DNA of 64,000 nt from Spirochaetota bacterium (GTDB taxonomy: Bacteria; Spirochaetota; Spirochaetia; Treponematales; UBA12059): the NCBI GenBank assembly GCA_018262985.1, contig JADFDI010000004.1:124001-188000 (forward strand), in the 5' to 3' direction. Positions within the stretch are counted from its first letter, which is position 1, and the number at the start of each line of letters is the position of its first letter. Both the position numbers and the translations under genes were made by a program. The notes under the pieces were generated by a model. It did no database searches. It worked only from the letters and a program-made list of their open reading frames with translations, and had not been told where the DNA came from. This document shows, piece after piece, positions 49,191 through 64,000 of the stretch.

Positions 49191-51017
49191 TCAGTAGACG
49201 AAGACGACGGTCTCGGTCGGCTGCCGGTGACGGAGCTTGAGGTAGAGCGAGTTCGAGGCGCGCTTGTAGTTGAAGCCCGAGACCTCGTAGCGTTCGAAGG
49301 CCGGATCCATGCGGTAGTCGATGCCGTGGATGCGGATGGTCTGATAGGGAGCCACGCCGTAGACGGCGGCGAAATGGGCGTAGCCGACGGGGTTTTCGAA
49401 CGAGTACACGGCCCTTCCCGTCTCCTTGACCACCGAAACCCGGGACGCCACGGTCCAGGCCCAGGCTCCCGGCCCGAGCTCGCGGTAGAACGACACCTGC
49501 CGGGGATAGCGGGGATTCGTCGCGACGAGGTCGTAGACCGCCTCGGGGGCCAGCGAGGACGAGCCGACGACGAGCGAGCCATCCTTGAGGGAAGCGGCCG
49601 ACGGCAGGAAGCCGTCGCCGTCCGCCAGGGCAAGCACCCCGGCCACGAGGCTCTGGCCGACGCCGACCATGGTCGACTTGGCGGACCTCTCGCCGTAACG
49701 GATGAGCGCGTAGCCCGCCCTGAGCCCGAGCCTCGGATCCATCTCTCCTGAGCCACCGGCGCGGTAGAAGTACCCCTGCGCGGTTTTCCGCACGGCGGGA
49801 AGCATGACGCGCTCGGCGACGGCTTCGAAACGGGCGAAAGGATTCGCGTCGGCGCCCAGCAACTCGAAGCCGTCGAGCCATGCCTCGAGGGCTCCGACGG
49901 CCCGCCGCGGGTCGAGCGAGGCCGGATCGACGCCCTGGGCCCAGGCGAAGACCGAGCGCGCGAGCGAATACGGGGTGCGGTCGAGCAGGAAGGGCACGAG
50001 GCGCTCGCCGTCGAATATGGAGGCGGAATTCTCGGCGATGGCGCGTTCGATTCGGCGCACCTCCGCGAGGTCGGCCTCCTCCAGCCTGCCCATCGCGTTG
50101 ACGATGTCGCCGAAGTACGGCGCGGAGAGCCAGGAGAATTCCGCGGGCCGCGCCGCGCGCACGGCGGCCACGCGCTCGAAGGCCGCAGGTCCGGCCCCGC
50201 GCGACCAAGCCTCGGCGAGGTAGGCCACGGCGGCCGCCTCCACGGGCGCCCTTCCCCCCGCGGAATCCGCCCACGCTCCTTCGGTGGCGATCCAGCGCCG
50301 GGCCGAGAGCCCCGCCCAGGTCTTGTCGAGGTAGGAGGAGCGCACCGCGGCCCAAGCCGAGCCCTCCATGGGCGCCTGTTCGACGAAGGTCGCGACGGCA
50401 GGGGCGGACGACGCGGCCGGCGCCGCGACCGGCGCCATCGTCAGGGCTGCGGGCACGAGCGCGGTACCGGACAGCCTCATGATCCGAGCGGCGCGGTCGA
50501 GCGCCGCGCCGGGAATACCGAGCGACCAGGTCGAGCCGCCGCGCGCGAGCACGAGCGTTCCACCGGAGCCTTCATCCAGGCGCGCCCCGCGCGAAAGCCT
50601 CCATGAAACCGAAACTTCCCGCGCCGAGTCGATGGAGACGGAGGCGCCGCCGTCCGGCGACGACAGCGCGCGCAGGACCGGTCCGCCCTCGAATTCCACG
50701 AGGAAGCCGGCCGCGAGCGCGGTGAAGGAAGCCGGCGCCGAAGTCCTCCGGGTGCCCTTGGCGTCGGTCCAGGACAGCGGTCGCTCGGCGGAGAAATCAA
50801 GCGTGAGTCCCTGGAACGAAAGCGACGCCGCGGAAATCGGGCCGCCTTCGCGCGACCCCGGTTCTCCGCCCTCGGCCCGCTCCGCGCGCAGGGCGAATTC
50901 GCCCGACTCGACGAGGAAACCGCCTTCCCTCGGGAACTGGATGAGCACGAGGGCGACGATGATGCCGATATAGAGAGCGGCGAGGCCCAAGCCCCGCCAG
51001 AGGGATCCGTATTTCAT
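49191..51017 (-). CDS. membrane-anchored protein of unknown function
   Basis: A 608-residue protein with one N-terminal membrane anchor (about residues 7-26, GLGLAALYIGIIVALVLIQF) and a large outside domain. The first half is beta-rich (residues 35-200, LTLDFSAERPLSW, VSVSWRLSRGA). An Ala/Pro linker leads to an alpha-rich second half with repeated helical pairs (LARSVFAWAQGVDP, RLGLRAGYALIRYGE) and a final beta segment ending TETVVFVY. I do not recognise a family. The start is the ATG at 51017, because the open frame upstream runs antisense through the TPR gene. It diverges from that gene. Confidence 0.7.
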   Translation of the reverse strand: MKYGSLWRGLGLAALYIGIIVALVLIQFPREGGFLVESGEFALRAERAEGGEPGSREGGPISAASLSFQGLTLDFSAERPLSWTDAKGTRRTSAPASFTALAAGFLVEFEGGPVLRALSSPDGGASVSIDSAREVSVSWRLSRGARLDEGSGGTLVLARGGSTWSLGIPGAALDRAARIMRLSGTALVPAALTMAPVAAPAASSAPAVATFVEQAPMEGSAWAAVRSSYLDKTWAGLSARRWIATEGAWADSAGGRAPVEAAAVAYLAEAWSRGAGPAAFERVAAVRAARPAEFSWLSAPYFGDIVNAMGRLEEADLAEVRRIERAIAENSASIFDGERLVPFLLDRTPYSLARSVFAWAQGVDPASLDPRRAVGALEAWLDGFELLGADANPFARFEAVAERVMLPAVRKTAQGYFYRAGGSGEMDPRLGLRAGYALIRYGERSAKSTMVGVGQSLVAGVLALADGDGFLPSAASLKDGSLVVGSSSLAPEAVYDLVATNPRYPRQVSFYRELGPGAWAWTVASRVSVVKETGRAVYSFENPVGYAHFAAVYGVAPYQTIRIHGIDYRMDPAFERYEVSGFNYKRASNSLYLKLRHRQPTETVVFVY

Positions 51018-51059
51018 GGCGGTTTCGGACTGTAGCGCAGGAAGGGCCGAAGTGCAAGC

Positions 51060-51089
51060 TTGCCCCGGGTGAGCGCCCGAGGCTATCAT
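51060..51089 (+). promoter_or_regulatory. promoter of the TPR-DHH-TraB operon
   Basis: TTGCCC (51060-51065), an 18-base spacer and TATCAT (51084-51089) lie about 39 bases before the ATG at 51129. The gene has a normal GGAG ribosome-binding site. Confidence 0.5.
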
Positions 51090-51128
51090 GACGGCCTCGC
51101 CACCCCACGCATCGACCTGGAGCCGACG

Positions 51129-52556
51129 ATGAGCGCACGCGCAGTCCGAACGATCACCCGCGGCGTCGCGGGATACGTGATCGCCATCTCCCTTTCGATC
51201 CTGACCCTGCTGGCTGCCGCCTGCGGCAGCGCGGGTCCCGTCCCCGAGCTCAAGGATCCGGTCGTCCGCGAGCTCGTCACGCTCGACCAGATCCACGCCC
51301 TGCTCGCGAAGGGCGAGCTCGGAGCCGCGCTCGCCAAGACCGAGTCCTACGCCGCCGCCGAACCCGCGAACGTCGACCGCCGCCTCGTGCTGGCCTCGGT
51401 CCGCGCCTCGGCCGGCGACCTGGCCGGCGCCCGCGCCGCCACGGAGGAAGCCAAGGTCCTCGCCCCCTCGAGCGCCGAGCCCTGGTTCTTCGCCGCCGAA
51501 CTCGCCTCGTGGTCCGGCGACGCGGCCGGCCGCAAGGCCGCCCTCGACAAGGCCCTGTCCCTCGAGCCCGCGCACGCCGACGCCCTGGCCGCGTACGGCG
51601 ACCTCCACTGGGAGGCCGGCGCCTACGCCAAGGCCGAGGACTACTACCGCCGCGCCTTCGCCGCGGACCCCGCCAACCTGGGCGCCCTGCTCGGCATGGG
51701 CCGCGCCGCCTACCGCAAGGACGACTACAAGGCCTCGGCCTCCTTCCTCGACCGCGCCGTGGCCGCCCACCCCGGATCCTCGCTGGCCTATTCCGACCGG
51801 GCCCGCGCCCGCTACAAGCTCGGCCGCTACCTCGAGGCCCTCGACGACCTGGACGCCTCCGTGGAGCTCGATCCGGACTCCGCCTGGCACCGCATCGAGC
51901 GCGGCCAGCTGCTGCTCGACTTCGGACGCCCGGAAGAGGCGCTCGCCGACTTCTCGCGCGCCATCGAGCTCGATCCCTCCGACTTCCTGCCCTACGTCTA
52001 CCGCGCCGGCATCCACGAGGAAGCCGGCCGCGACGCCGAAGCCCTGGCAGACTACAAGAAGCTGCTCGCGCTCGAGCCCGACTACTGGTACGCCAACGAA
52101 TCCATCGGCACGGTCGCGTTCCGCTCCGGCGACTGGAAGACCGCGCGCGAAGGCTTCGAAGCCGCCTTCCGCATGAGTCCCGTCCAGTACGAGTACGCCG
52201 TCATGGCGGCCGTGTCGCTCGCCCGGGGCGGCGACGCCGAGGGCGCGCGCGCCTTCGCCGGAAAGGTGCTTCCCTCCATCGACCGCGAGAAATTCCCCTC
52301 GGAATGGCTGGCCCTCCGCCTCTTCTACGACCGCGCAGGGTCGAGCTCGGAGATCGAGCTGCGCATCGGCGCGGAAAAGCGCCTCGACATGAAAGCCGCC
52401 CTGCTCGTCTGGCTCGGCGAGTACTGGATAGCCAAGGGCCGGCCCGAGCTCGGCGCCACCTATATCGGACTCGCGCTCGAGCTCGACCGGCAAGGCACCA
52501 TCTGGCACCGCCTCGCGGAAGCCGAGGCGAAGCGGCTGGGACCGGCCAAGCCGTGA
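51129..52556 (+). CDS. TPR-repeat lipoprotein
   Basis: A 475-residue lipoprotein: the signal peptide ends in LTLLAAACGS with the lipobox cysteine at about residue 32. Then come eight or more tetratricopeptide repeats, for instance DALAAYGDLHWEAGAYAKAE and ALLGMGRAAYRKDDYKASA, and RIERGQLLLDFGRPEEALAD. TPR lipoproteins act as assembly scaffolds at the outer or inner membrane. The ATG at 51129 follows GGAGCCG. The stop overlaps the DHH gene (GTGA). Confidence 0.9.
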   Translation: MSARAVRTITRGVAGYVIAISLSILTLLAAACGSAGPVPELKDPVVRELVTLDQIHALLAKGELGAALAKTESYAAAEPANVDRRLVLASVRASAGDLAGARAATEEAKVLAPSSAEPWFFAAELASWSGDAAGRKAALDKALSLEPAHADALAAYGDLHWEAGAYAKAEDYYRRAFAADPANLGALLGMGRAAYRKDDYKASASFLDRAVAAHPGSSLAYSDRARARYKLGRYLEALDDLDASVELDPDSAWHRIERGQLLLDFGRPEEALADFSRAIELDPSDFLPYVYRAGIHEEAGRDAEALADYKKLLALEPDYWYANESIGTVAFRSGDWKTAREGFEAAFRMSPVQYEYAVMAAVSLARGGDAEGARAFAGKVLPSIDREKFPSEWLALRLFYDRAGSSSEIELRIGAEKRLDMKAALLVWLGEYWIAKGRPELGATYIGLALELDRQGTIWHRLAEAEAKRLGPAKP

Positions 52557-53530
52557 AGCCGGCGGGCGCCCTCGCGTCCCTCGAGGCGGCGCTCGACCGC
52601 CGCCTGCCCGTCATCGCGCAAGCGCACGACTTCCCGGACGTCGACGCGTTCGGCGCCGCCTGGGCCCTGGCCAGCCTGCTCGCCGCGCGCGGTTACGACG
52701 CCGCGCCCGCCTTCCGCGGGGGCTTGCGCTCGCGAAGCCTCGCGAACATGGCCCGCGAGCTCGGAGCCCCGGTCGCCACCCCGCCAGACGAAGCGTTCGG
52801 CGGGCGTTCGATCGTCGCCGTCGACTGCATACCCGAGAACGGCAACGTCGAGCTCTTTCCCGGCCGACTGGCCGCGGCCATCGACCACCACGTCCCCGCG
52901 GCCGCGCCCGCGGCCCCCTTCGCCGACCTCCGCATCGACTCGGGCTCCTGCTGCTCGATCATCGTCGACTACTGGAGGGAAGCCGCCCTCGAGCCCGAGC
53001 GCCGCGTCGCCACCGCCCTGCTCGCGGGCCTGCAGGCGGACACCGACTTCCTCTCGCGCGGGGCCGGCCCCCTCGACGTGGAAGCCTTCCACTGGCTATC
53101 ATCGCGCGCGGACCGCGACCAGGCGGCCCGGCTCGTCAAGACCGCGCTGGCCCCCGGCGAGCTCAGGCTCATCGCGACCGCGCTCCAGTCCGCGACCCTG
53201 GCCGACTCGGCCCTGTACGCAGTGGTCGGCCGGGCCCGCGACATCGAGGCGCCCGCCCTGCTCGCCGACTTCGCGCTCCGCGCCGAGGACGTCTCGGTCG
53301 CCCTGGTCGCCTCGGTCGACGACGAGGGCGTGCGCATCTCGATCCGCTCGCGCGACCCGCTCGTGCCGGCCTTCGACGCCGCGCGCGCGCTCGTCGCGGG
53401 CATAGGCTCCGGCGGCGGCCACGGCCGTTCCGCCGGCGGCCGCATCGCCCTTTCCGATTTTCCCGGCGAGGAGGCGCTCGGCGCCCGCTTCTTCGACGCC
53501 GTCCGCTCGCTGCGCGCACATCGATCCTGA
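52553..53530 (+). CDS. DHH-family phosphoesterase
   Basis: A 325-residue DHH/DHHA1 protein. Metal ligands are in AHDFPDVDAFGA (residues 25-34) and VDCIPENG (90-97), the DHH motif at 111-113 (AIDHHV), and QADTDFLSRG. The C-terminal GSGGGHGRSAGG motif (287-290 GGGH) marks the DHHA1 substrate-binding half. NrnA-like members degrade nanoRNAs or cyclic-dinucleotide products, attractive here given three cyclic-di-GMP enzymes or regulators in the window, but not proven. The start is GTG 52553, overlapping the TPR stop. Confidence 0.9.
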   Translation: MKPAGALASLEAALDRRLPVIAQAHDFPDVDAFGAAWALASLLAARGYDAAPAFRGGLRSRSLANMARELGAPVATPPDEAFGGRSIVAVDCIPENGNVELFPGRLAAAIDHHVPAAAPAAPFADLRIDSGSCCSIIVDYWREAALEPERRVATALLAGLQADTDFLSRGAGPLDVEAFHWLSSRADRDQAARLVKTALAPGELRLIATALQSATLADSALYAVVGRARDIEAPALLADFALRAEDVSVALVASVDDEGVRISIRSRDPLVPAFDAARALVAGIGSGGGHGRSAGGRIALSDFPGEEALGARFFDAVRSLRAHRS

Positions 53531-53540
53531 CGGAGTCCCC

Positions 53541-54710
53541 ATGCCCGCCGTCCGCCGCATCGTCCACGGAAAACGCGAATTCATCCTCGTCGGCACCGCC
53601 CACGTCTCGGCCGAGAGCGTGCGCGAGGTCGTCGACACCATCGAAACCGAAAAACCGGACCGCGTCTGCGTCGAGCTCGACCCGGGCCGCCACGGCTCGC
53701 TGACCAAGGGCTCCGACTGGCGCGCCCTCGACATCGCCAAGGTGCTCAAACAGGGCAAGGGCTTCCTCCTCCTGGCCAACCTCGCGCTCTCGTCCTTCCA
53801 ACGCCGCATGGGTTCCGGCTCCGGCACCAAGCCCGGCGCCGAGATGCTCGCGGCCGTGGAAGCCGCCGAGAAGGCCGGCATCCCCTGGAGCCTCTGCGAC
53901 CGCGAGGTGCAGGTGACGCTCCGCCGCGCCTGGACCATGAGCGGTCTCTGGGGAAAGGCCAAGCTCGTCGCCAGCCTCCTCTCCGGCGTCGCGGGCGGCG
54001 ACGAGGTCAGCCCCGAGGAGATCGAGAAGCTCAAGGAGCAGAACGAGCTCGACGCCATGATGGCCGAGCTCGCCGACTACCTGCCCTCGGTCAAGAAGGT
54101 GCTCATCGACGAGCGCGACCGCTACCTGGCCGCGAAGATCTGGACCTCCGAAGGCGCGCGCATCCTGGCCGTCGTCGGAGCGGGGCACGCCGCCGGCATC
54201 GAGGACTGGCTCGGCCGCTTCGCGCGCGGCGAGGAAGCCACCGACGTCGCGGAGATCGACACGGTGCCCGGCCCCGGCCTCTTCTCGAAAATCCTCCCCT
54301 ACGCCCTGCCGGCCGCCCTCGTGGCCCTCTTCGGACTCAGCTTCCTCCGCTCCGGCGCCCTGGCCAGCCTCCGCATGCTCGGCTTCTGGGTGCTCCTGAA
54401 CGGCGGCCTCGCGGCGCTCGGCTCGGCCCTCTGCCTGGCGCATCCCCTCACCATCCTCGTCAGCTTCGTCTCCGCGCCCGTCGCCACGCTCAACCCCCTC
54501 GTGGGCGTCGGCCTCTTCGCGGGCCTCACCGAGGCGTACGTCCGCAAACCCTCCGTCGCCGACTTCGAGTCGCTGCAGGACGACATCGCGAGCTTCCGCG
54601 GCTTCTACCGCAACCGCGTCACGCACATCCTCCTCGTGTTCTTCGTGTCGACCCTGCTGGCCGCGATCGGGAACTTCTTCGCGATACCGTTGCTCGCAGG
54701 CACGCTCTAG
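53541..54710 (+). CDS. TraB/PrgY family membrane protein
   Basis: A 389-residue protein. The N-terminal 240 residues contain the TraB signature elements FILVGTAHVSAESV, VCVELDPGRHGS and LAVVGAGHAAGI with conserved His and Glu residues, a putative metalloprotease-like core. The C-terminal 140 residues hold about four transmembrane helices (PYALPAALVALFGLSFL onward). The family includes PrgY, which reduces peptide pheromone activity in enterococci; its role in bacteria like this is unknown. The ATG is 11 bases after the DHH stop, giving a three-gene operon. Confidence 0.85.
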   Translation: MPAVRRIVHGKREFILVGTAHVSAESVREVVDTIETEKPDRVCVELDPGRHGSLTKGSDWRALDIAKVLKQGKGFLLLANLALSSFQRRMGSGSGTKPGAEMLAAVEAAEKAGIPWSLCDREVQVTLRRAWTMSGLWGKAKLVASLLSGVAGGDEVSPEEIEKLKEQNELDAMMAELADYLPSVKKVLIDERDRYLAAKIWTSEGARILAVVGAGHAAGIEDWLGRFARGEEATDVAEIDTVPGPGLFSKILPYALPAALVALFGLSFLRSGALASLRMLGFWVLLNGGLAALGSALCLAHPLTILVSFVSAPVATLNPLVGVGLFAGLTEAYVRKPSVADFESLQDDIASFRGFYRNRVTHILLVFFVSTLLAAIGNFFAIPLLAGTL

Positions 54711-55154
54711 GCGAATGGGGGAGCACACCTCTCCAGGACTACGGGAAGCGCGCAACTCGACCGCAGGCGCGGCGTGGAATTTTATCAAAGCCCATCAGCG
54801 CGGGGCCTGGTGAGCGGAAACGCACCCCTCTCGCTCCGCTGCGCTGCGCTCGGGGGCGCGTTTCCGCTCACCACCCGCCGTGCTACCTGGCCCTGTAAAA
54901 GCGGACGCCGGGTTTGCGCTTGCACGCCGCTTGCCGTCGGGCGGGCGGGCGCGCTTCCCGCTTCAGGGCGGGTGCTTCGCTCTCCCGACGCTGCTCCCCC
55001 ACGCTTCAGCGTCCTCGGGCGCGTGGCGCCCTGCGGTCGCTTACGCTACCCCCACTCTTTACGGGCGGCTTCCACGGCGGCGGCGACGCGGAGGTTCGGG
55101 TGATGCGGGGTTGAGCGGCGGACGCAAGCGTGGCGGGGCGGGCGGGCGGTGGGT
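54711..55154. other. intergenic stretch with a 15-bp inverted repeat, no gene
   Basis: About 440 bases with no convincing gene; the short open frames have low-complexity Arg/Ala/Pro products. A perfect inverted repeat has arms at 54809-54823 and 54858-54872, separated by 34 bases that include a GCGCTGCGCT-like stretch, so the transcript could fold into a long hairpin on either strand. It looks like an intergenic repeat element. This marks the start of the accessory region. Confidence 0.5.
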
Positions 55155-55160
55155 TATCAT
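55155..55160 (+). promoter_or_regulatory. leaderless -10 box (TATCAT) of Uma2 copy 1
   Basis: TATCAT is followed by GGAGGA and directly by the ATG at 55167. The GGAGGA touches the ATG, too close to act as a normal Shine-Dalgarno site, so a leaderless start is more likely. The same block recurs before copy 2. Confidence 0.45.
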
Positions 55161-55166
55161 GGAGGA

Positions 55167-55775
55167 ATGAAACCGGTGGCCGATCCCGCAATCGACGTTT
55201 CCGCGCACTACGCGTACCGCGACTACCGCGCCTGGCCCGACGACGAGCGTTGGGAGCTGATCCGCGGCGAAGCCTGGATGATGGGCGCGCCGACGACGGC
55301 GCACCAACGTCTCTTGGCATCGCTGTACCGCGACGTCTTCGCCGCGCTGCCGGAAGGCGGCCCCTGCGAAGCCTTCTTCGCCCCGGTGGACGTCCTCCTG
55401 CCGCGGCGTCCGGCCGATGCGGACGACGAGGTGGACACGGTCGTCCAGCCCGACCTCATCGTGGTCTGCGATCCCGCCAAGGTGCGCGACTCGTTCGCGC
55501 GCGGCGCCCCGGACCTCGTCGTCGAGATCCTCTCGCCCTCCACCTCGGGCAAGGACCAGCGCGAAATATTCCGCGTCTACGAGGAGTCGGGCGTGCGCGA
55601 GTACTGGATCGTCGACCCGGCGGGCACATGGTTCGGACGCCACGAGCTCGGTCCCGACGGCCGCAACGGCAAGCCGGTCCTCCGCGAGCCCCGGGGCGCG
55701 GACCGGTCGCCGGTGCCCTCCGCGGTCGTGGAAGGCTTCGCGCTCGACCGCGCGGCGCTGCTGGAGCGGGCGTAG
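55167..55775 (+). CDS. Uma2 family putative endonuclease, copy 1
   Basis: A 202-residue Uma2 (DUF820) protein with a PD-(D/E)XK-like core: ERWELIRGEAW, PVDVLLPR, VVQPDLIVVCDPAKV, APDLVVEILSPSTSGKD and VREYWIVDP. Members are abundant in genomes with many repeated genes; their biological role is unclear, and some are linked to mobile elements. It is about four-fifths identical by eye to the copy at 57407-58012, including the bases upstream. Both are high-G+C, whereas the DNA between them is not. Confidence 0.9.
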   Translation: MKPVADPAIDVSAHYAYRDYRAWPDDERWELIRGEAWMMGAPTTAHQRLLASLYRDVFAALPEGGPCEAFFAPVDVLLPRRPADADDEVDTVVQPDLIVVCDPAKVRDSFARGAPDLVVEILSPSTSGKDQREIFRVYEESGVREYWIVDPAGTWFGRHELGPDGRNGKPVLREPRGADRSPVPSAVVEGFALDRAALLERA

Positions 55776-55934
55776 AATGACAACATACTACTCAGGATCC
55801 GACTTGGTCACGCCATTTTTTAGATTCCTTTATACGCGTCTTGGTTCGACAGGACAATAGAAAAAGGACAAGTGCATCCCGCTCATCCGGAACGGGTGGA
55901 ATGGCAAGATTTCAATGTTTCGAAGGAGATCGGC
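55776..55934. other. intergenic, start of an A/T-richer island
   Basis: From the Uma2 copy 1 stop to the lipoprotein gene. Base composition shifts at once to A/T-rich. No transposase or integrase remnant was recognised. Short inverted or direct repeats at the borders were looked for and none clearly found. Confidence 0.4.
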
Positions 55935-56519
55935 ATGAATAAAATCGGCATACTCCTCGGTTCGGTACTTTCATTGGCGGCCTGCGCGATTGTTGATCCC
56001 GCAAAAATCGGAATGAATGATGTCCAGGCTATGATAACAGATGGCAGATCGGGAGATACACTTGAGCTCTCCAGGGCTGATCTGAATGTTCAAATGTCCC
56101 AAAGGCTTAATGAAATTTCCCTGGATATTCTAGGCAAACCTTTTGGTTTGGATGTCCTTGAAGTGTTGATCGAAAACGACGACTCATGGATTCCTTCGAT
56201 CAATGAGAGCAGTCGGCATGCGCGGAACTACGGGCACACGACTGTTGCGACTGGCCCCTCTTCGGGCAGGCATTGTCCACATACAGACGGAATTTGTCAT
56301 GGCGACTTTCAATATTCCGGGGCATGTTCCATGATCGGAATCGGCTGGATCCTGTTAAGCGTGGACATCATCGAAAGAGGTACGGAGAGCGATGGAGGCT
56401 TCACCTACGAGTATGCGGTGGAGGAAAAAACCTTTGTGTGCTCAAATTACCTGAACTGGAATAATTGCTGCAACCGTGTGATTACAAAGATTTCGACTTG
56501 GCACGGATCGGCGTACTAG
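55935..56519 (+). CDS. orphan lipoprotein in the A/T-rich island
   Basis: A 194-residue predicted lipoprotein: signal peptide MNKIGILLGSVLSLAAC with the lipobox cysteine at 17. The mature part has several more cysteines (HCPHTDGICHGDF, GACSMIG, FVCSNYLNWNNCCNR), likely disulfides outside the cell, and a hydrophobic segment IGIGWILLSVDII. No family recognised. The ATG at 55935 follows a good GAAGGAGAT site. Clearly different base composition from the chromosome suggests transfer. Confidence 0.75.
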   Translation: MNKIGILLGSVLSLAACAIVDPAKIGMNDVQAMITDGRSGDTLELSRADLNVQMSQRLNEISLDILGKPFGLDVLEVLIENDDSWIPSINESSRHARNYGHTTVATGPSSGRHCPHTDGICHGDFQYSGACSMIGIGWILLSVDIIERGTESDGGFTYEYAVEEKTFVCSNYLNWNNCCNRVITKISTWHGSAY

Positions 56520-56528
56520 GAGTCAACG

Positions 56529-57257
56529 ATGCGTTTAGGCAATTCGTCCATGGAATTCCCGGAAAGATCAATCGCTCCCCATGCTGCACAGATTCATCCC
56601 TTCAAGAAGCTGAATATCCTGCTGATTATTGGAATATGCGCAGCCAGACTTTTCGGCCAGGATTTCCTTATTTCGTCGGAAGCGCCTGAGGTTGGCATCA
56701 TCCAACCGGATCAATCAAGCACGATGTGGTTGATCGGGAATGAGAACCAGAGGATAAGCATCGACTCGACGGGAAATCTGGTTTTCCGGCGTGCACTTGA
56801 AAATGAAGCCGGATCCGTCGTACTGGAGCGTTCGGTGATCGCGGTGTCGGGAATTCAATTTCTCCAGACAGCGACGGACCTTTTTTTAGAGATCGGTTTT
56901 TCGGATGAACCCGGAGTGTACATCCACAACCTATATCGGTATTCCCCGTCGGCCGGCACGTGGGAAACGCTATCCTCGCTTCCGACGACGGAAGTGCTGC
57001 CGTTTTTTTACAATGGCGAGATCCTGATCTTGCCAAGCAGCCTGGGTGTTTTCGCTTTTGACGCATCAAGCGATAGAGAGCTTTGGATGTTTCATTTCAA
57101 CCCTGGAGAAACACTCTACTACGCGAAGAAGGCGACCTCTCTCGACATGGAGAAACTGCGAGTGTCGTTCGAGCATACGATTGGGAATACGATCCATGGA
57201 AGCGAGATCGTATTGCGAATGAGAACCGGGGAGCTGCTTGAGATTATCGGGTTTTGA
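56529..57257 (+). CDS. orphan exported protein in the A/T-rich island
   Basis: A 242-residue protein. A hydrophobic segment at about residues 29-42 (LNILLIIGICAARLFG) could be an uncleaved anchor or a late signal. The rest is beta-rich with repeated aromatic strands (STMWLIGNENQRISID, GVYIHNLYRYSPSAGTW, GVFAFDASSDRELWMFHF), reminiscent of a beta-propeller or YncE-like sensor, but no family is recognised. The ATG at 56529 follows TAGGAG. It lies nine bases after the lipoprotein stop, so the two likely form one unit. Confidence 0.7.
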   Translation: MRLGNSSMEFPERSIAPHAAQIHPFKKLNILLIIGICAARLFGQDFLISSEAPEVGIIQPDQSSTMWLIGNENQRISIDSTGNLVFRRALENEAGSVVLERSVIAVSGIQFLQTATDLFLEIGFSDEPGVYIHNLYRYSPSAGTWETLSSLPTTEVLPFFYNGEILILPSSLGVFAFDASSDRELWMFHFNPGETLYYAKKATSLDMEKLRVSFEHTIGNTIHGSEIVLRMRTGELLEIIGF

Positions 57258-57394
57258 CAATGCGTGCCTTTCGGGTCACAGCGAGGCGACTGACCAAGTC
57301 TTCTTTATGAATATGGCCCCGTGATCATCGGAGGCATGGATCCCTGAACATCGCCTGCGATGCGCAAGCGTGGCGGGAACAGCGGGCGGTGGTG
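57258..57394. other. intergenic, return to high G+C before Uma2 copy 2
   Basis: The last part (about 57362-57394) matches the bases upstream of Uma2 copy 1, including a GCAAGCGTGGCGGG block. The first part is unlike anything else in the window. Confidence 0.4.
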
Positions 57395-57400
57395 TATCAT
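57395..57400 (+). promoter_or_regulatory. leaderless -10 box (TATCAT) of Uma2 copy 2
   Basis: TATCAT is followed by GGAGGG and then the ATG at 57407, the same arrangement as copy 1. Confidence 0.45.
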
Positions 57401-57406
57401 GGAGGG

Positions 57407-58012
57407 ATGAAACCGGTGGCAGATCCCGCTGTCGATCTTTCCGCGCGCTACGCGTATCGCGACTACCGCGCCTGGCCCGACGACGAGCGTCGGGAGCTGA
57501 TCCGCGGCGAGGCCTGGACGACGGGCGTGCCGACGACTGCTCACCAGCGGCTCGTCGGCGACCTGTACTTCTCGCTACGCACCCTGCTCGCGGGCAAATC
57601 CTGCGAGGCGATGCTCTCGCCCGTGGACGTACTCCTGCCGCGGCGTCCGACGGACGCGGACGCCGAGGTGGACACGGTCGTCCAGCCCGACCTCATCGTC
57701 GTGTGCGATCCGGCCAAGGTGCGCGACGCGTTCGTGCGCGGCGCCCCGGACCTGGTCCTCGAGATCCTCTCGCCCTCCACGTCCGGCAAGGACCAGCGCG
57801 AGAAATACCGCGTCTACGAGGAAGCGGGCGTGCGCGAGTACTGGATAATCGACCCGGCCGGCAAGTGGTTCGAGCGCCATGAACTCGGCCCCGACGGCCG
57901 TTACGGAAAGCCGGACCTCCGCGAGCCCTGGGGTGCGGATCAGAGCCCGGTTCCCTCGGCGGTCGTGGACGGTTTCGCGCTCGACCGCGCGGCGCTGCTG
58001 GAACGGGCGTAG
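57407..58012 (+). CDS. Uma2 family putative endonuclease, copy 2
   Basis: A 201-residue paralogue of copy 1. Conserved core elements are ERRELIRGEAW, PVDVLLPR, VVQPDLIVVCDPAKVR, APDLVLEILSPSTSGKD and VREYWIIDP. Differences cluster at residues 37-72 (the region after the first helix), as if that part faced different selection. The 3' ends are almost identical. A third, broken 3' end occurs at 58535-58614. Confidence 0.9.
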   Translation: MKPVADPAVDLSARYAYRDYRAWPDDERRELIRGEAWTTGVPTTAHQRLVGDLYFSLRTLLAGKSCEAMLSPVDVLLPRRPTDADAEVDTVVQPDLIVVCDPAKVRDAFVRGAPDLVLEILSPSTSGKDQREKYRVYEEAGVREYWIIDPAGKWFERHELGPDGRYGKPDLREPWGADQSPVPSAVVDGFALDRAALLERA

Positions 58013-58087
58013 GCGACGGCACCGTCGCGCGCCATGTGACCGTACCGGCGCGGACTTCCATCCATAAATCGATCGGGGGGTGGTTTC

Positions 58088-58525
58088 ATGGCCGGCAAGC
58101 TCGACGTCAAGAAGGAAATCCTCAATGTGCTCGTCGTAGCCGGCACGAGCCTCATGTTCTTCGCGCTGGCGTTCGCGCTCTATTTCGGGCTTTTCGCCAC
58201 GTTCGAGACCTTCGCGAACCGCGAGGGCTCGTACAGGTTCGTCGGCCCGCTCCGGGTCGGATACGGACTGGTCCTGTGCGGTCTCTGCGCCATACTCTAC
58301 CGGACCCGGGCGCCCGAGCCGTTCAAGGCAGCGGCGCTGGCCGCCGCGCTCGGAACGTCCTGGATAGGGTTCGGCGTCCAGCTCCACGAGCGCTCCGGGA
58401 TATTCCTCATCATCGCGTTCGCGAGCGGTCTCGGCGTCGTCGCGGTCCTCGCGCGGTCGAGACGGCGCTGGTATCACTTCCTCGCGCCCGCACTCGCGGC
58501 CGCGGCGGCCGTCGCCTACCTCTGA
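58088..58525 (+). CDS. small four-helix membrane protein, unknown function
   Basis: A 145-residue protein with about four transmembrane segments (near residues 13-38, 55-72, 78-95 and 100-145), ending in a hydrophobic helix, with positive charges between (LYRTRAPEP, SRRRWYH) consistent with inner-membrane topology. No family recognised. A purine-rich stretch precedes the ATG. It sits between Uma2 copy 2 and the Uma2 remnant, in the cargo position. Confidence 0.7.
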   Translation: MAGKLDVKKEILNVLVVAGTSLMFFALAFALYFGLFATFETFANREGSYRFVGPLRVGYGLVLCGLCAILYRTRAPEPFKAAALAAALGTSWIGFGVQLHERSGIFLIIAFASGLGVVAVLARSRRRWYHFLAPALAAAAAVAYL

Positions 58526-58534
58526 GGGACGCCG

Positions 58535-58614
58535 GCATGGAGCGGTCGCCGGTGCCCTCCGCCGTCATGGAAGTCATTTCACCCGGCCGCGAGGCCAAGC
58601 CGGAGCGGGCGTAG
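58535..58614 (+). pseudogene. degenerate 3' end of a third Uma2 gene
   Basis: About 75 bases resemble the last 26 codons of the Uma2 copies: the frame reads MERSPVPSAVMEVIS, and later EAKPERA before a TAG, against RSPVPSAVVEGFA and LLERA. One 20-base block is identical to copy 1. No 5' part of the gene is present. The membrane-protein gene at 58088-58525 therefore occupies the site where the rest of a third Uma2 would be. Confidence 0.7.
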
Positions 58615-58687
58615 GGAAACAGGATCGACTCTGTCCCGGTCTTGTTGCCGCATACTTTCGGCTGTATATTGTATGCAGGAGGACGCC

Positions 58688-58933
58688 ATGCCTTTGCTGC
58701 AGGTGCGCGAATGTCCCGAGGACCTCTACCGGAAGATCACCGTCCGGGCCCGCCTCGAGAACCGGACCATCGCACAGCAAGTCGTGGTCCTGCTCGAAAA
58801 AAGCTTCGGCCAGGAGCGGTCGAACCGCGAACGCAGACGGGCTGTCCTCGATCGCATCGAGACCCGGGAGGCTCCCGCGGGCGCTGACGCGATCGACGAC
58901 GTCGCCCTCATCCGGGAAGGACGCGAGCGGTGA
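58688..58933 (+). CDS. FitA/Arc-like ribbon-helix-helix antitoxin
   Basis: An 81-residue protein with an N-terminal beta strand (PLLQVRECPE) and two helices (DLYRKITVRARLENRTIAQQ), the ribbon-helix-helix DNA-binding pattern of Arc, VapB and FitA. The C-terminal tail probably wraps the PIN toxin. An AGGAGG site precedes the ATG at 58688. The stop overlaps the toxin start (GTGA). Likely represses its own promoter. Confidence 0.85.
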   Translation: MPLLQVRECPEDLYRKITVRARLENRTIAQQVVVLLEKSFGQERSNRERRRAVLDRIETREAPAGADAIDDVALIREGRER

Positions 58934-59328
58934 CCCTCGTGCTCGACGCGAGCGCCGCGGTCCAGATCATCCTCCGGAAGGAGAAATACGGGCTTTACGC
59001 CGAGCGCTTCGAGGCCGCTTCCTGGGTGATCGCCCCGGACCTCTTCGTCGCCGAACTCGCCAACGTGCTCTGGAAATACCACCGGGCGGGATTCCTCGAC
59101 CACGCGGAATGCCAGGAGCGAGTCACGGACGGCGTCGAGCTTGTGGACGACTTCTTCGGAAGCATGGAGCTCTGGAAGGAAGCGCCGGCCGAGAGCATCC
59201 GCCACGACCATTCCGCGTACGACATGTTCTACGCGGTACTGGCCCGGCGCAACGACGCGACCTTGCTCAGCAACGACGCCCGGCTCCGCGAGACCTGCGC
59301 CGCGATGCGGGTCGAGAGCTTCGGATAG
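58930..59328 (+). CDS. vapC: VapC-type PIN domain toxin
   Basis: A 132-residue PIN ribonuclease, normally cutting tRNA or rRNA when free of antitoxin. All four acidic active-site residues are present: Asp6 (VLDASA), Glu42 (VAELANV), Asp98 (HSAYDMFY) and Asp116 (LLSNDARL). The GTG start at 58930 overlaps the antitoxin stop. It appears intact. Confidence 0.92.
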   Translation: MTLVLDASAAVQIILRKEKYGLYAERFEAASWVIAPDLFVAELANVLWKYHRAGFLDHAECQERVTDGVELVDDFFGSMELWKEAPAESIRHDHSAYDMFYAVLARRNDATLLSNDARLRETCAAMRVESFG

Positions 59329-59446
59329 TCCGGACGGCATACCCCTCGGCCCGAAGATCCTCCGGGCGAGCTTCGAGACGATAGTCGTTACATTTTTCCA
59401 AAACTTATCGCCTTTTTGAACAAAGCCCTCTTGACCCTTGCGCGGC
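59329..59446. other. intergenic with promoter-like elements for the next operon
   Basis: Contains TTGACC at 59431-59436, a plausible -35 for a -10 TACAAT at 59452-59457 (15-base spacer) or AATACT (18-base spacer). A GTTACA motif also occurs near 59388. No gene seen. Confidence 0.45.
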
Positions 59447-59490
59447 ATTGTTACAATACTCCTTCACATGCAGTGTTGATGTAACAACAC
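59447..59490 (+). promoter_or_regulatory. two palindromes in the PaaX-operon promoter, candidate operators
   Basis: ATTGT-T-ACAAT is a perfect palindrome at 59447-59457 that includes the probable -10. A second, GTGTTG-N6-CAACAC, lies at 59473-59490. The two share the core ACAA/TTGT or its complement. They sit just before a GCAAGGAGG site and the small membrane-protein gene, and could be bound by the PaaX-like regulator encoded in the same operon. Confidence 0.55.
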
Positions 59491-59505
59491 GGCAAGGAGG
59501 CTCAC

Positions 59506-59748
59506 ATGAACCCGTCTACGTTCAATCCCGTCAATTTCCTGGTCAGCATGGCGGCCGGCTGGTTCGTCCTCGCTTTCCTGCACTCGGGCGCCGTATCGCT
59601 CTCCACGGGCGCCTGGTCCGCGCTGATCCCCCGCTTCAAGGACATCGCCTTCTTCCGTGACGGACGCGGCGCGACCATCGACGTGATCATAGTCCTCGTG
59701 TTCTTCGTGGGCGGCAACATCGCCTGGCACCTCGCCCGTGCCCGCTAG
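59506..59748 (+). CDS. two-helix small membrane protein
   Basis: An 80-residue protein with hydrophobic segments at about residues 10-30 and 58-74, ending in HLARAR. It has no recognised family. AAGGAGG lies eight bases before the ATG at 59506. Its end overlaps the start of the PaaX-family gene by 11 bases, so the two are coupled. Confidence 0.7.
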   Translation: MNPSTFNPVNFLVSMAAGWFVLAFLHSGAVSLSTGAWSALIPRFKDIAFFRDGRGATIDVIIVLVFFVGGNIAWHLARAR

Positions 59749-60592
59749 GCGAAACCCGGGATCGAGCTCGCGGGCGCCCGACTTCCGCGAGGCCTACCCG
59801 ATCTCGGCGAAAGCCGCGGTCCACACGCCGGCCGCGTTCCGCTCCAACCTGGCGAGCCTGTCCGGGCTGCCCTGGCCCCGGATCGAGGGCATCCGCGACT
59901 TCGCGCGCTTCGCGGGAATCTCGGACGGCGCGACGCGGACCGCGCTCTCCCGGGCGAAGGCCGAGGGCAGCCTCGTGGTCGAGGCGGACGCCGCGGGGGT
60001 CAAGCGCTACCGCCTTTCGCCGGCCCAGCTCGCGCGGGGCAACGCCGTCATCCATTCCGGCTCCCGGCCCGAGGGCTTCGTCGTCGCGGTGTTCTCGTTC
60101 AAGAGCGAGGACACGGACGAGCGCGCCGCGCTCCGCGAGACCCTCAAGGATTTCGGCTTCCGGAAGCTCGCGCAGAACGCCTACATCAACGGCCGCATCG
60201 AAACCGCGCCGCTCCGGGCCGCGGTCCGCGACCTGGGCCTGGAGAGCCACCTGCACCTGTTCACCTGCCCCGAGCTCGACGACGAGGACCAGGCGCGGCG
60301 CATCCTCGAACTTTTCGACCTCGAGGCCCGCCGGCGCGAGCTCGCGGAATACCTGGCCGTCCTCCGCGGATTCTTCCCGGACGGCCTCGCGGACGACGAG
60401 CTCGCGCGGCGGCTGCTCTACGTGGGTCCCGTGCACTTCGAGCGCGTCGAGCTCGGCGAGCCGCCGATCCCGGCCAGGTACCGCCCCAAGGATTACCCGC
60501 TCGACGAAATCAACCGCTTCTACGGCGAAAAACTCGAGCGCGGCGGCGCGTTGATGCTCTCGTACTACGTCGAAATGAACGGAAAGGAGTGA
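59738..60592 (+). CDS. PaaX-family transcriptional regulator
   Basis: A 284-residue regulator (GTG start at 59738 or a later one). An N-terminal winged helix (FARFAGISDGATRTALSRAKAEG at about 50-70), a central Cas2-like ferredoxin fold (FVVAVFSF, ALRETLKDFGFRKLAQNAYI) and a helical C-terminal domain (RVELGEPPIPARYRPKDYPL) match PaaX, the phenylacetyl-CoA-responsive repressor. The ligand here is unknown; no phenylacetate genes are present. It overlaps the small membrane-protein gene and is followed at once by a DUF4386-like gene. Confidence 0.85.
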   Translation: MPARRNPGSSSRAPDFREAYPISAKAAVHTPAAFRSNLASLSGLPWPRIEGIRDFARFAGISDGATRTALSRAKAEGSLVVEADAAGVKRYRLSPAQLARGNAVIHSGSRPEGFVVAVFSFKSEDTDERAALRETLKDFGFRKLAQNAYINGRIETAPLRAAVRDLGLESHLHLFTCPELDDEDQARRILELFDLEARRRELAEYLAVLRGFFPDGLADDELARRLLYVGPVHFERVELGEPPIPARYRPKDYPLDEINRFYGEKLERGGALMLSYYVEMNGKE

Positions 60593-60597
60593 ATATC

Positions 60598-61380
60598 ATG
60601 GCTGGAATCAACGCCCGCGCGGGCACGGGCATGGCGAACGGCACGGCGAAGGGCGCGACCGCGGAACGCGGGAAACGCGACGGCGCGTTCCTCTTCGGGG
60701 GAATCGCGGCCCTGCTCGTCGCCGCGCTCTCGCTTGCCGACGTCGCCGTCGGCACCATGACGGGCGGCAACCTCGAGGCCCTGCCCCGGACGGCGGCGGA
60801 GCGCTTCGCGCAGCTCGAGGCCTCGCCGCTCCTCGGGCTCTACAACCTGGACCTCCTCAACCTCGTCACCACGCTGCTCTTCCTGCCGGCGCTCTACGCG
60901 GTATACGTCGCGCTCCGCGACAAGGGTTCGAAGCTGGCGGGCCTGGCTTGGGGTCTGTCCCTCGTCGGGGCGGCCGTGTTCGCGGCGGGCAATCCCGCGC
61001 TGCCGATGCTCGGCCTTTCGCGGGACTACCTCGCCGCGGGCGAAATCGCGCAGCGGGCGGCCCTGGCTGCCGCGGGCGAGGCCATCCTGGCCAGGGGCGC
61101 GCACGGAGGCGCAGGCGTATTCCCGAGCTTCCTCCTGCCGCTCGTCGCGAACCTGCTCCTCTCGCTCTCCATGCCGAAGGGCCGCCGCTTCCCGCCCGCC
61201 CTCGCCTGGCTCGGCTTCGGGGGCAACGCGCTCCTCGCCGCCTACCTGGTCCTAGTCACCTTCGTGCCCGGCGTCGACACCGTCGCCACGGCGGTCGCCG
61301 CGCCCGGCGGGCTCATGTCGATAGCGTGGATGATGATGGTGGGATTCGGGCTTCTGGCCGGTCGCTTTGTAAATCGGTGA
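60598..61380 (+). CDS. DUF4386-like multi-helix membrane protein
   Basis: A 260-residue membrane protein with about seven hydrophobic segments, starting at the ATG at 60598 behind an AAAGGAG site; a GTG nine bases earlier overlaps the regulator stop. The stretch LLGLYNLDLLNLVTTLLFLPALY resembles the second helix of DUF4386 proteins, quoted here only as LYNLDLLNLVTTLLF. Function unknown. Third gene of the PaaX operon. Confidence 0.7.
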   Translation: MAGINARAGTGMANGTAKGATAERGKRDGAFLFGGIAALLVAALSLADVAVGTMTGGNLEALPRTAAERFAQLEASPLLGLYNLDLLNLVTTLLFLPALYAVYVALRDKGSKLAGLAWGLSLVGAAVFAAGNPALPMLGLSRDYLAAGEIAQRAALAAAGEAILARGAHGGAGVFPSFLLPLVANLLLSLSMPKGRRFPPALAWLGFGGNALLAAYLVLVTFVPGVDTVATAVAAPGGLMSIAWMMMVGFGLLAGRFVNR

Positions 61381-61447
61381 TTCCCGCCAAATGAAAACCG
61401 GGGTTACCAGACGGTTCCCCGGCTTATCCCTCATGAAATCATCGTTC

Positions 61448-61816
61448 TCAGCTCTTCGGCTCGACGGCCACGGCTGCAACAACCTTGGGTCTGCCGGGTA
61501 TCGCTAGCGTCGCGAGCGCGGCGACGACAAGACCGAGCAGGATTTGCATCGTCACCGGGAAATTGGGCGCGTTGAGCATCAAGCCGGAGGACGCAAGCAG
61601 TCCCGCGAAAAGCAACCACTTCAAGAGCTCGGGGATGGGCTTGAAGAACGCCACGATGAAAACGACCACCGCCGCGATCGCGATCAACAGGAAGACGATA
61701 TAGAAACCGGTGTCCTCGCCACCGAACTCGGCGACGAGCCCGCCGAACCGATTGAGCCCCTCGGCCGCGAGAGCCGCCATGACGGCTCCGATTACGTACA
61801 GGATTTTCTTGAACAT
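61448..61816 (-). CDS. small multi-helix membrane protein
   Basis: A 122-residue protein with about four transmembrane segments (residues 5-22, 37-58, 65-82 and 87-108) and a short polar tail. No recognised family. AGGAGTATGCC precedes the ATG at 61816. Convergent with the DUF4386-like gene. Confidence 0.65.
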   Translation of the reverse strand: MFKKILYVIGAVMAALAAEGLNRFGGLVAEFGGEDTGFYIVFLLIAIAAVVVFIVAFFKPIPELLKWLLFAGLLASSGLMLNAPNFPVTMQILLGLVVAALATLAIPGRPKVVAAVAVEPKS

Positions 61817-61907
61817 GGCATACTCCTATGGAATTTTATTCAGATCTGCACCCAGGGAGAGTTCACCGGCACGAGTCGTCCGACTCGCACCGGCAAGCCC
61901 ACCGACC
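61817..61907. other. intergenic, nothing recognised
   Basis: Gap between the small membrane protein and the zinc-ribbon gene. Some GTCCGACTCGCACCGG-like sequence but no clear hairpin. Confidence 0.3.
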
Positions 61908-62624
61908 TTACTCGCCCGTAAATATGGAACCCAGCACCAAGCCCCACCCCAAACCGTCTGTCTCTTCTCCATTGACTTCTATCGCGCGCACCTGGAATGA
62001 TTGATCCTCATCGTCGATCACGAACTGCAGCAGGACCTCCTGCGGTAGACCCAAGAGTTCAATGGCTCCTTCCACATTCACGAATTTGATCCCGCTTTCG
62101 GATTCGCCAGATTCCCATTTCGGATTTTTGAAAGACCTGTCCACCACCTCGCCGACGGTCATGTCGGGATATTGCGACAGATGACCATTCTTTACGAGGT
62201 CCACATAGCCGTAGGGATCGGCCCCGCCACTTGCCAATAGCAGAATCCAAAAAACCGCACAAACGATTCCGGAGATCAAGAAGCTTTTTGCCTGAGTACG
62301 GCGCACTTTCGACGGGTCCTTCCGAAAGGCCAAGTAGAAAATCGGCCCCGTTATAGCTCCCGTACATGCCAGGCTCAGAAGCCTGTATGTGCCGATCTTG
62401 AAGCCACCGTATTTTTCAGGGTTTTTTACCTTATGGATATTCCATATCGAAAGTGGTTTTTTTAATCCATAGTTTTCATCGGCACCATCCGAGCTCCGGT
62501 CGGCGGACGGAGAGCCTACACTCGACGCATTCGGGGCAAGAACGGATCCGCAATGCTTGCACTTGACCGCCACGGCGAGGATCTCCTCTCCACACATGGG
62601 ACACCGCTTGGTTTCTTCTGCCAT
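61908..62624 (-). CDS. zinc-ribbon membrane protein
   Basis: A 238-residue protein. The N-terminus has a four-cysteine zinc ribbon (CPMCGEE then CKHCGS, residues 8-26). After a disordered linker come two transmembrane segments (about 80-100 and 115-133). The C-terminal 100 residues (ending GSIFTGE) form a compact domain with FVNVEGAIELLGLPQEVLLQ and VIDDEDQSFQVRAIEVNGEE, a pattern seen in small regulatory membrane proteins with zinc ribbons. A/T-richer than neighbours. The ATG at 62624 has a fine GGAGGAATC site. Confidence 0.65.
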   Translation of the reverse strand: MAEETKRCPMCGEEILAVAVKCKHCGSVLAPNASSVGSPSADRSSDGADENYGLKKPLSIWNIHKVKNPEKYGGFKIGTYRLLSLACTGAITGPIFYLAFRKDPSKVRRTQAKSFLISGIVCAVFWILLLASGGADPYGYVDLVKNGHLSQYPDMTVGEVVDRSFKNPKWESGESESGIKFVNVEGAIELLGLPQEVLLQFVIDDEDQSFQVRAIEVNGEETDGLGWGLVLGSIFTGE

Positions 62625-62892
62625 GATTCCTCCATGATTTCGATTTCCCGCGTTTATGCGCAGAAGGAACAACGTGAGGTTAATCGGCTTCGAGGAGCCG
62701 ATTCGCCGCACGGGCGGATTATAATTCCCCCCTCCTCGTTGTCAACTTTTAGTTACTGGACTGATTCCGCTCTCAGGCGAAACCCGACTCCAGCACGAAC
62801 CGCCAAGTTCCTTCCCGAAATGATCACCGCCCAAAACCGAAAGAGCGCCGATTCCGGTTGACACATGAGAGCCCCGTAATTACCGTAATCAC
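62625..62892. other. A/T-rich intergenic region before mazEF
   Basis: Holds the divergent promoters of the zinc-ribbon gene and mazEF. Near the mazE ATG the bases CCGTAAT are repeated as CCGTAATTACCGTAAT (62875-62890), containing the palindrome GTAATTAC, a plausible MazE binding site. A short open frame at 62553-62861 overlaps the zinc-ribbon gene and is not considered real. Confidence 0.5.
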
Positions 62893-63150
62893 ATGAAGGC
62901 ATCGGTCGTGCGCATCGGTAACTCGCGGGGGCTCAGACTCCCGGCGCGGCTGCTCGAACTCTACGGGCTCTCGGAAGGCGACGAGCTCGTGCTCGAGGAG
63001 CGCGCCGAGGGCATCCTGGTCCGGCCCGCACCCCGCGCGGGCGGCAAGCTGGACCGGGCGGATGCGTACCGGCGGATGGCGGAAGAGGTCGCCGAAAAAG
63101 CGGAGTGGTCGGACTGGGACGGGACGGCGGGCGATGGTCTCGAGCGTTGA
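62893..63150 (+). CDS. mazE: MazE/AbrB-type antitoxin
   Basis: An 85-residue SpoVT/AbrB-fold antitoxin. VVRIGNSRGLRLPARLLELY is the swapped-hairpin DNA-binding domain, followed by SEGDELVLEER. The C-terminal acidic tail binds the toxin. The gene overlaps mazF by 17 bases. A palindrome GTAATTAC lies just upstream of the ATG. Confidence 0.9.
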   Translation: MKASVVRIGNSRGLRLPARLLELYGLSEGDELVLEERAEGILVRPAPRAGGKLDRADAYRRMAEEVAEKAEWSDWDGTAGDGLER

Positions 63151-63481
63151 GCGCTACGGCGTCTACCGGGTCGAGCTCGATCCGACGCGCGGTTCCGAGA
63201 TCGCCAAGACCCGTCCCGCGCTCGTGGTCAGCGACGAGGACATGAACCGCTTCCTCGCCACGGTGGTGGTGTGCCCGATCACCTCGCGGCTCCACCCGGC
63301 CTGGCCGAGCCGCGTCCAGACGGAAGTGGCCGGCCGGGAGGCCGAGATCGCCGTCGACCAGATCAGGACCATCGACAAGGCGCGGCTCCGCGGCTTCGTC
63401 GGGAACATTCCGCCGGAAGCGGCGGCAGAAGTGCGCCACGTAATCACCGAGCTGTACGGGGTCCTGTCGGTAAAGGCCTGA
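63134..63481 (+). CDS. mazF: MazF/PemK-type endoribonuclease toxin
   Basis: A 115-residue MazF-like ribonuclease that cuts mRNA at short motifs. Conserved blocks are YRVELDPTRGSEIAKTRPAL, CPITSRL (catalytic Thr region) and VDQIRTIDKARLRGFVG. The ATG at 63134 is the likely start, because the frame upstream lies inside mazE. Complete. Confidence 0.9.
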   Translation: MVSSVERYGVYRVELDPTRGSEIAKTRPALVVSDEDMNRFLATVVVCPITSRLHPAWPSRVQTEVAGREAEIAVDQIRTIDKARLRGFVGNIPPEAAAEVRHVITELYGVLSVKA

Positions 63482-63505
63482 AAGGGCCGCTCGAGGCGTC
63501 CGACA

Positions 63506-63597
63506 TTCCCGTACGGTATTTTGCTGCTGGCGCGCATAGCCGCATTCCCGTTCGGTAATGTATTCGACAACTCCATCTTGTTTTTCCCGATCGGGAA
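63506..63597 (+). promoter_or_regulatory. three evenly spaced palindromic operators upstream of hipBA
   Basis: Sites TTCCCGTACGGTAT (63506-63519), TTCCCGTTCGGTAA (63545-63558) and TTCCCGATCGGGAA (63584-63597) share one pattern; the last is a perfect palindrome. Centre-to-centre spacing is exactly 39 bases in both intervals. HipB-type antitoxins bind several spaced palindromes before their own genes, so autoregulation is likely. Confidence 0.8.
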
Positions 63598-63612
63598 TAC
63601 CAAACTGATCGC

Positions 63613-63837
63613 ATGACCCGCATCCTTGAGCCCGCCACCCTCGCGCTCGCAATCAGGGAGCGCCGAAAGGCTCTGGGCTATACGCAGGCGCGCCTCGCCT
63701 CGCTCTGCGGCACGGGGGTTCGCTTCATCTCGGATCTGGAGAACGCGAAGTCCACGGTCGAACTGGGGAAGGTCCTCGCAGTCGTCGCCACGCTCGGCCT
63801 CGACCTCTACCTCGCCGAGCGAGGGGCCGAGGCGTGA
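63613..63837 (+). CDS. hipB: HipB-type XRE antitoxin
   Basis: A 74-residue helix-turn-helix protein: LAIRERRKALGYTQARLASL then GVRFISDLENAKSTV is the HTH_3 pattern, ending DLYLAERG. The ATG at 63613 lies 15 bases after the third operator. The stop overlaps the hipA start (GTGA). It represses the pair and blocks HipA kinase. Confidence 0.92.
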   Translation: MTRILEPATLALAIRERRKALGYTQARLASLCGTGVRFISDLENAKSTVELGKVLAVVATLGLDLYLAERGAEA

Positions 63838-64000
63838 GGCTTCGGGTCCTGCTCGACGGACACACTGTCGGGACGCTGGAATCGACACGGGAAGATGGGG
63901 TCGTGTTCTCCTACGACAGGACCTGGCTCTCGGATCCGGCGGCGTACGCGCTCTCGATTTCGCTGCCGCTCCGGGAGAAGGCCTATCCCCAAGGCAGGTC
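63834..64000 (+). CDS. hipA: HipA-type toxin kinase, N-terminus (3' end outside window)
   Basis: From the GTG at 63834 the frame runs to the window edge. The first 55 residues, including VLLDGHTVGTLES, VFSYDRTWLSDPAAYALSIS and LPLREKAYPQG, match the N-terminal subdomain 1 of HipA, a Ser/Thr kinase whose best-known target is glutamyl-tRNA synthetase. The kinase domain is not visible, so integrity cannot be judged. Confidence 0.88.
   Translation, partial: MRLRVLLDGHTVGTLESTREDGVVFSYDRTWLSDPAAYALSISLPLREKAYPQGR

Follow-up and report, generated by a model that had tools for sequence, protein, structure and literature searches.

A Uma2 locus in a Spirochaetota genome that looks like a product of recombination among copies of an expanded gene family

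How do several copies of one gene come to lie interspersed with unrelated genes? This question is raised by a segment of a Spirochaetota genome in which two complete Uma2 genes flank a pair of A/T-rich orphan genes and the 3' end of a third Uma2 gene lies behind a small membrane-protein gene. The function of Uma2, one of the larger gene families of bacteria, is unknown, and genomes carry it in many copies. The first-pass annotation of the 64-kb stretch of DNA analysed here (the window, G000:C17:124001-188000) had regarded this order as a single five-part pattern, in which a repeated unit acquires passenger genes between Uma2 copies, either by recombination or through a role of Uma2 in mobility. 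In our analysis, the rearrangement is real and clearly bounded, and it looks like the outcome of recombination within a known, expanded gene family and not like a new mobile system. The source genome (G000; 3.44 Mb, 22 contigs, 99.8% complete) was compared with its congeners G005 and G006, two of these three genomes of the genus being fragmented metagenome-assembled genomes (MAGs), and class-wide searches covered 297 genomes of the class. For the A/T-rich segment, viral contigs, plasmids and phages were also searched. Among the genomes compared, the closest relatives at the Uma2 locus are spirochaete MAGs. The locus is composed of the following features.

55123..55166, + strand: upstream stretch of Uma2 copy 1, consisting of CGCAAGCG, 24 nt, TATCAT (-10-like) and GGAGG; homology to copy 2 and to the paralogue loci G000:C11 and G006:C412 begins here
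55149..55775, + strand: Uma2 copy 1 (PF05685), likelier start ATG 55167; 5' part G006 allele, 3' part diverged
55776..57362, no strand: A/T-rich insert of 1,587 bp, absent at the same locus in the two congeners
55935..56519, + strand: orphan gene, putative lipoprotein; the open reading frame (ORF) opens at 55872
56529..57257, + strand: orphan gene (ORF), putative exported protein with weak kelch-like similarity
57363..57406, + strand: second upstream stretch, from CGCAAGCG to GGAGG, a repeat of that of copy 1
57389..58012, + strand: Uma2 copy 2 (PF05685), likelier start ATG 57407; 5' part G005 allele
58088..58525, + strand: small membrane-protein gene, in the same place in G005 and G006
58534..58614, + strand: Uma2 3'-end remnant, last 26 codons plus stop, also in G005 and G006

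Both full Uma2 ORFs match PF05685 far above the cut-off of 27 bits (103.5 and 105 bits; 1e-29 and 4e-30) and also match the PDC-S03 models of PADLOC. The two copies form a repeat that extends beyond the genes (55123-55775 versus 57363-58012; 654 alignment columns, 85% DNA identity). It opens with CGCAAGCG, from where the first GTG lies 26 nt and the likelier ATG (55167) 44 nt downstream, and it closes with TAG. The remnant behind the membrane-protein gene matches the end of copy 1 at 64 of 81 positions (BLAST E ~1e-13), is in frame and has kept its stop codon. The annotated components, namely two full Uma2 genes with matching upstream bases around an A/T-rich orphan pair and a third Uma2 3' end behind a small membrane-protein gene, are thus all present.

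The comparison with the congeners separates these components by age. At the syntenic locus, both G005 (contig C67) and G006 (contig C72) carry one full Uma2 gene, the membrane-protein gene, the same 81-nt remnant and an RHH/PIN toxin-antitoxin pair, in this order, and lack the A/T-rich gene pair and one Uma2 copy. Only the insert and one Uma2 gene, about 2.24 kb in total, are new in the genome analysed. Because the membrane-protein gene and the remnant are kept in both congeners, they are ancestral to the genus and do not belong to the event that introduced the insert. The five parts of the annotated pattern therefore exist, but not as one unit. Apart from this locus and its counterparts in both congeners, the membrane-protein gene has no match in the 297 class genomes.

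The insert is foreign in composition, with a G+C content of 49.5% versus 67.7% for the window, the lowest for its length anywhere in the 64 kb. Neither of its two ORFs matches a Pfam family above the cut-off or a PADLOC model, and for neither was a relative found in the class genomes, viral contigs or plasmids. A search of phages with the insert DNA was likewise negative, and no donor was found in any of these collections. The N-terminal part of the first gene (55935-56130) shows a sub-threshold similarity to NCBIfam NGK_0946 (E 5.9e-5; 23.5 bits versus a cut-off of 45 bits), and the second gene shows Pfam kelch matches under cut-off (E 0.012-0.093). By eye, a lipobox-like LSLAAC can be made out in the first gene, as can a hydrophobic N-terminus in the insert genes, which suggests that their products may be exported. 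Structure models, made with no relatives available, were too poor to use (predicted local distance difference test scores of 42 for 56529-57257, mostly strands, and 34 for 55935-56519). No recombinase or transposase is encoded among the ORFs of the insert.

The two Uma2 copies themselves are an allele mosaic. In the 5' part (alignment columns 50-330), copy 1 is 96.4% identical to the Uma2 gene of G006 and copy 2 is 85.9% identical to that of G005, and copies 1 and 2 are 79.1% identical to each other. As many as 29 informative sites of this part join copy 1 with G006 and copy 2 with G005, compared with one site for each of the other two groupings. When trees for the 5' and 3' halves were compared separately by maximum likelihood (ML) and the approximately unbiased (AU) test, all three alternative trees were rejected for the 5' half (p 0.0005-0.0007). 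In the 3' part, these three groupings receive 3, 8 and 9 informative sites, and the deviating sequence is in most cases copy 1. The similarity to G006 is not uniform along the locus: the windows covering 54986-55225 (copy 1 and its upstream flank, about 260 bp) are 100% identical to G006, and the surrounding synteny is mostly roughly 82-90% identical. This identity within an otherwise more diverged locus suggests a recent exchange between the lineages. In addition, the last 81 nt of copy 1 match the remnant at 64-67 of 81 positions, compared with 54-60 of 81 for copy 2, G005 and G006, and further exchange among the Uma2 copies at this locus is likely. Judged from these allele patterns, the Uma2 copies at this locus appear to swap sequence with one another and with other species.

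The Uma2 genes elsewhere in the genus provide a background against which these changes can be viewed. One Uma2 locus is common to all three genomes, with flanks that are ~87-92% identical (L039, L045 and L051 with L054). At a second locus, G005 (C77) and G006 (C63) contain a full Uma2 gene, and the corresponding segment of the source genome (G000:C17:212602-213327, L208) consists of a membrane-protein gene, isoprenylcysteine-methyltransferase-like as named by eye, and a Uma2 3' remnant. Since G005 and G006 keep the last dozen codons of this membrane-protein gene, the remnants are reciprocal, suggesting that each lineage lost one of two neighbours. At a third locus, a whole Uma2 gene of 653 bp is present in G005 (C36, L200:6704-7356) and absent from G000 (C19, L217). 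The empty site reads ...CGCTTGGGCAAGCG|AGGGCGGCTCAGCC, and the border adjoins the inverted repeat CGCTTG-GG-CAAGCG, of which CAAGCG is present at the filled and the empty site alike. No outgroup was found for this site. For a further Uma2 locus (G006:C83), no syntenic region was found in G000, G005 or G002.

Every aligned Uma2 locus of the genus has kept the arrangement (C)CAAGCG-N24..35-TATACT/TATCAT-GGAGG, as has G002:C7, but the more distantly related Uma2 genes of G011, G012 and G017 lack it. With 5 occurrences in the window versus 9 expected, the motif CGCAAGCG shows no enrichment, and past the stop codons nothing is shared among the aligned Uma2 loci. The simplest reading of these loci is that a conserved promoter region and its gene have been vertically inherited, with deletions and recombination. 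If the CAAGCG border proves to be general, it would provide a testable handle on the spread of Uma2.

For the locus in the window, the account that we favour, and regard as reasonably probable, is that homologous recombination between Uma2 copies, in a Campbell-like manner, brought ~2.24 kb into an old Uma2 site. The old site would have consisted of a Uma2 gene, the membrane-protein gene and the remnant of a further Uma2 gene. Most likely, DNA carrying another Uma2 allele together with the A/T-rich gene pair would have recombined with the resident Uma2 by a RecA-type process. A single crossover would then have produced a resident 5' end joined to a donor 3' end, the insert, and a donor 5' end joined to the resident 3' end. 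In such an event, Uma2 would act as a source of repeated homology, and its enzyme activity would not be required. Several points weigh against this account. Because no donor of the insert was found, the crossover is read from its product; in the ML and AU comparison, the tree and the switch points of the 3' half stay unsettled; and the excess of unique 3' changes in copy 1 could be decay after a duplication. It is also possible that a two-copy ancestor followed by a loss in each relative yielded an identical pattern, and the genus comparison rests on three genomes, two of them fragmented.

The two-copy scenario would start from an ancient tandem Uma2 pair with A/T-rich DNA inserted between its members; crossovers at different points would then have removed one copy together with the insert in G005 and, separately, in G006. 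It appears rather unlikely to us. It accounts for the copy-2 allele that follows the copy-1 flank in G005 and for the Uma2 gene of G006, whose 5' end is that of copy 1 and whose 3' half is closer to copy 2, and reciprocal losses were observed at the G005:C77 locus. However, it requires two independent losses and an older insert, and the complete identity of ~260 bp of copy 1 and its flank to G006 points to a recent exchange. A simple tandem duplication of the resident Uma2, recent and confined to this lineage, with foreign DNA inserted later, would be the simplest way to two copies, and 9 sites of the 3' half do join copies 1 and 2. The annotation had named simple tandem duplication among the findings that would contradict its proposal, but the pairing of copies 1 and 2 is rejected in the 5' half (AU p 0.0005), where the two copies differ at 21% of the positions and copy 1 differs from G006 at <4%. 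The duplication could be reconciled with the 5' half only by later inter-species gene conversion, and we consider it improbable.

The remaining explanation is that Uma2 is, or was moved as, a gene-sized mobile unit of a homing-like type that inserts beside CAAGCG and thereby generates Uma2-flanked passengers. In its favour, PD-(D/E)XK enzymes include homing nucleases, the 653-bp presence/absence difference between G005:C36 and G000:C19 is precise and has its left border directly 3' of CAAGCG, and CAAGCG also precedes Uma2 at G002:C7 and at every locus of the genus that was aligned. The order Uma2, cargo, Uma2 with a 3' remnant in an unrelated genome (see below) likewise leaves some room for a weak mobility reading. 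Yet there is only one such presence/absence site, which may reflect a gain or a loss and at which a GCG microhomology permits deletion; a single site of this kind is insufficient for a claim of mobility. Moreover, the loci share no right end past the stop codons, the remaining loci are orthologous and stable, and CAAGCG, TATACT and GGAGG may be a mere promoter region. We regard the mobile unit as very improbable, and the same holds for its broader form, in which Uma2 would spread as precise CAAGCG-to-stop units, perhaps by homing, and build passenger arrays and 3' remnants in unrelated bacteria.

Recombination at the Uma2 copies, one of the two routes initially proposed, agrees with the single-copy, insert-free congeners, the allele mosaics and the similar arrangements found elsewhere (see below). 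In contrast, on present evidence neither a repeated unit that actively acquires passengers nor a role of Uma2 itself in mobility is supported: the other Uma2 loci of the genus are mostly orthologous single copies with conserved flanks, the membrane-gene unit is old, no sequence is shared past the stop codons, and the insert has no recombinase or transposase.

Among known systems, Campbell-type integration resembles the locus in the direct gene repeats around a foreign segment and in the apparently hybrid copies at the two ends, and the single-copy, insert-free state is present in the close relatives G005 and G006. As for the hybrid ends, the 5' halves are clearly different alleles, but the 3' halves, and with them the switch points, do not resolve; in addition, no circular donor is known here. 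Integron cassette arrays resemble the locus in their small same-strand genes with orphans and in the toxin-antitoxin pair nearby. However, the repeat search revealed no attC-like repeat between the genes (integrases were not searched for), and the neighbourhood is syntenic in the two congeners. An insertion sequence or transposon was rejected because there is no transposase among the insert ORFs, no shared right end and only a weak 10-nt inverted match. This match, GACTTGGTCA at 55801 and 57291, lies inside the insert ends and was reached in 3 of 2000 shuffles, with a range chosen post hoc.

According to PMC2701414, Uma2 probably acts as a solo toxin and occurs mostly in cassettes of paralogous genes, and an expansion of the family in Thermus and cyanobacteria has been reported (PMC1274311). 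The locus shares with these cassettes the adjacent paralogues of the PF05685 family but differs from them in that the paralogues are separated by foreign passengers, are allele mosaics and include one copy without a conserved lysine. A locus at which Uma2 copies recombine with one another and between species, trapping foreign genes, helps to explain the published cassettes.

The family has been assigned to the PD-(D/E)XK nucleases (PMC1913061). At the positions corresponding to copy-2 residues E30, D95 and E119, no variation occurs across 153-157 distinct relatives from the loci retrieved. The site of K133, whose presumed catalytic role rests on conservation and on the family assignment, is Lys in 153 of 156 relatives; copy 2 keeps this residue, but copy 1 has Ile (KDQREK site). 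The 3' half of copy 1 has also accumulated unique changes in 5 synonymous and 6 non-synonymous codons, compared with 1-2 non-synonymous codons in the others. Copy 1 is therefore probably inactive, or nearly so, as a nuclease and now decaying. Solved structures are available among Uma2 relatives (9y1l and 6okh), and PADLOC lists the family (Uma2/COG4636/DUF820) as the phage-defence candidate PDC-S03. From the literature and database labels, an intact Uma2 would be a solo PD-(D/E)XK nuclease and a candidate toxin or phage-defence protein.

The arrangement of Uma2, passenger and Uma2 with remnants is not confined to this window. Uma2 was found in 88 of the 297 class genomes, and among the matches listed, about seven contigs, including that of the window and one apparent contig-end duplication, carry Uma2 pairs within ~6 kb. 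In contig G141:C178 (~35% G+C), two Uma2 genes with 79% identity across 731 nt enclose an ORF for a GNAT-like acetyltransferase (named by eye), and upstream of the pair lies one more Uma2 3' remnant. An identical Uma2 pair in G144:C9 was discounted, because it belongs to a 1,185-bp exact duplication that spans a neighbour gene and reaches the contig end, probably an assembly effect. In an A/T-rich member of the class (L193:378-4194), the order is a Uma2 3' remnant, a repeated RadC-like fragment, Uma2, a GNAT-like gene and Uma2.

Two toxin-antitoxin pairs, RHH/PIN and MazE/MazF-like (58673-59328 and 62893-63481), are located near the Uma2 locus on the same strand. An Rfam-type scan of 50000-64000 detected no known RNA family. 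Just upstream of copy 1 lies a dispersed intergenic repeat (54712-55085) with a 32-nt inverted repeat at 54797-54884; it has no Rfam match and is present in ~20 partial copies of roughly 67-91% identity in its own genome and in similar numbers in G005 and G006.

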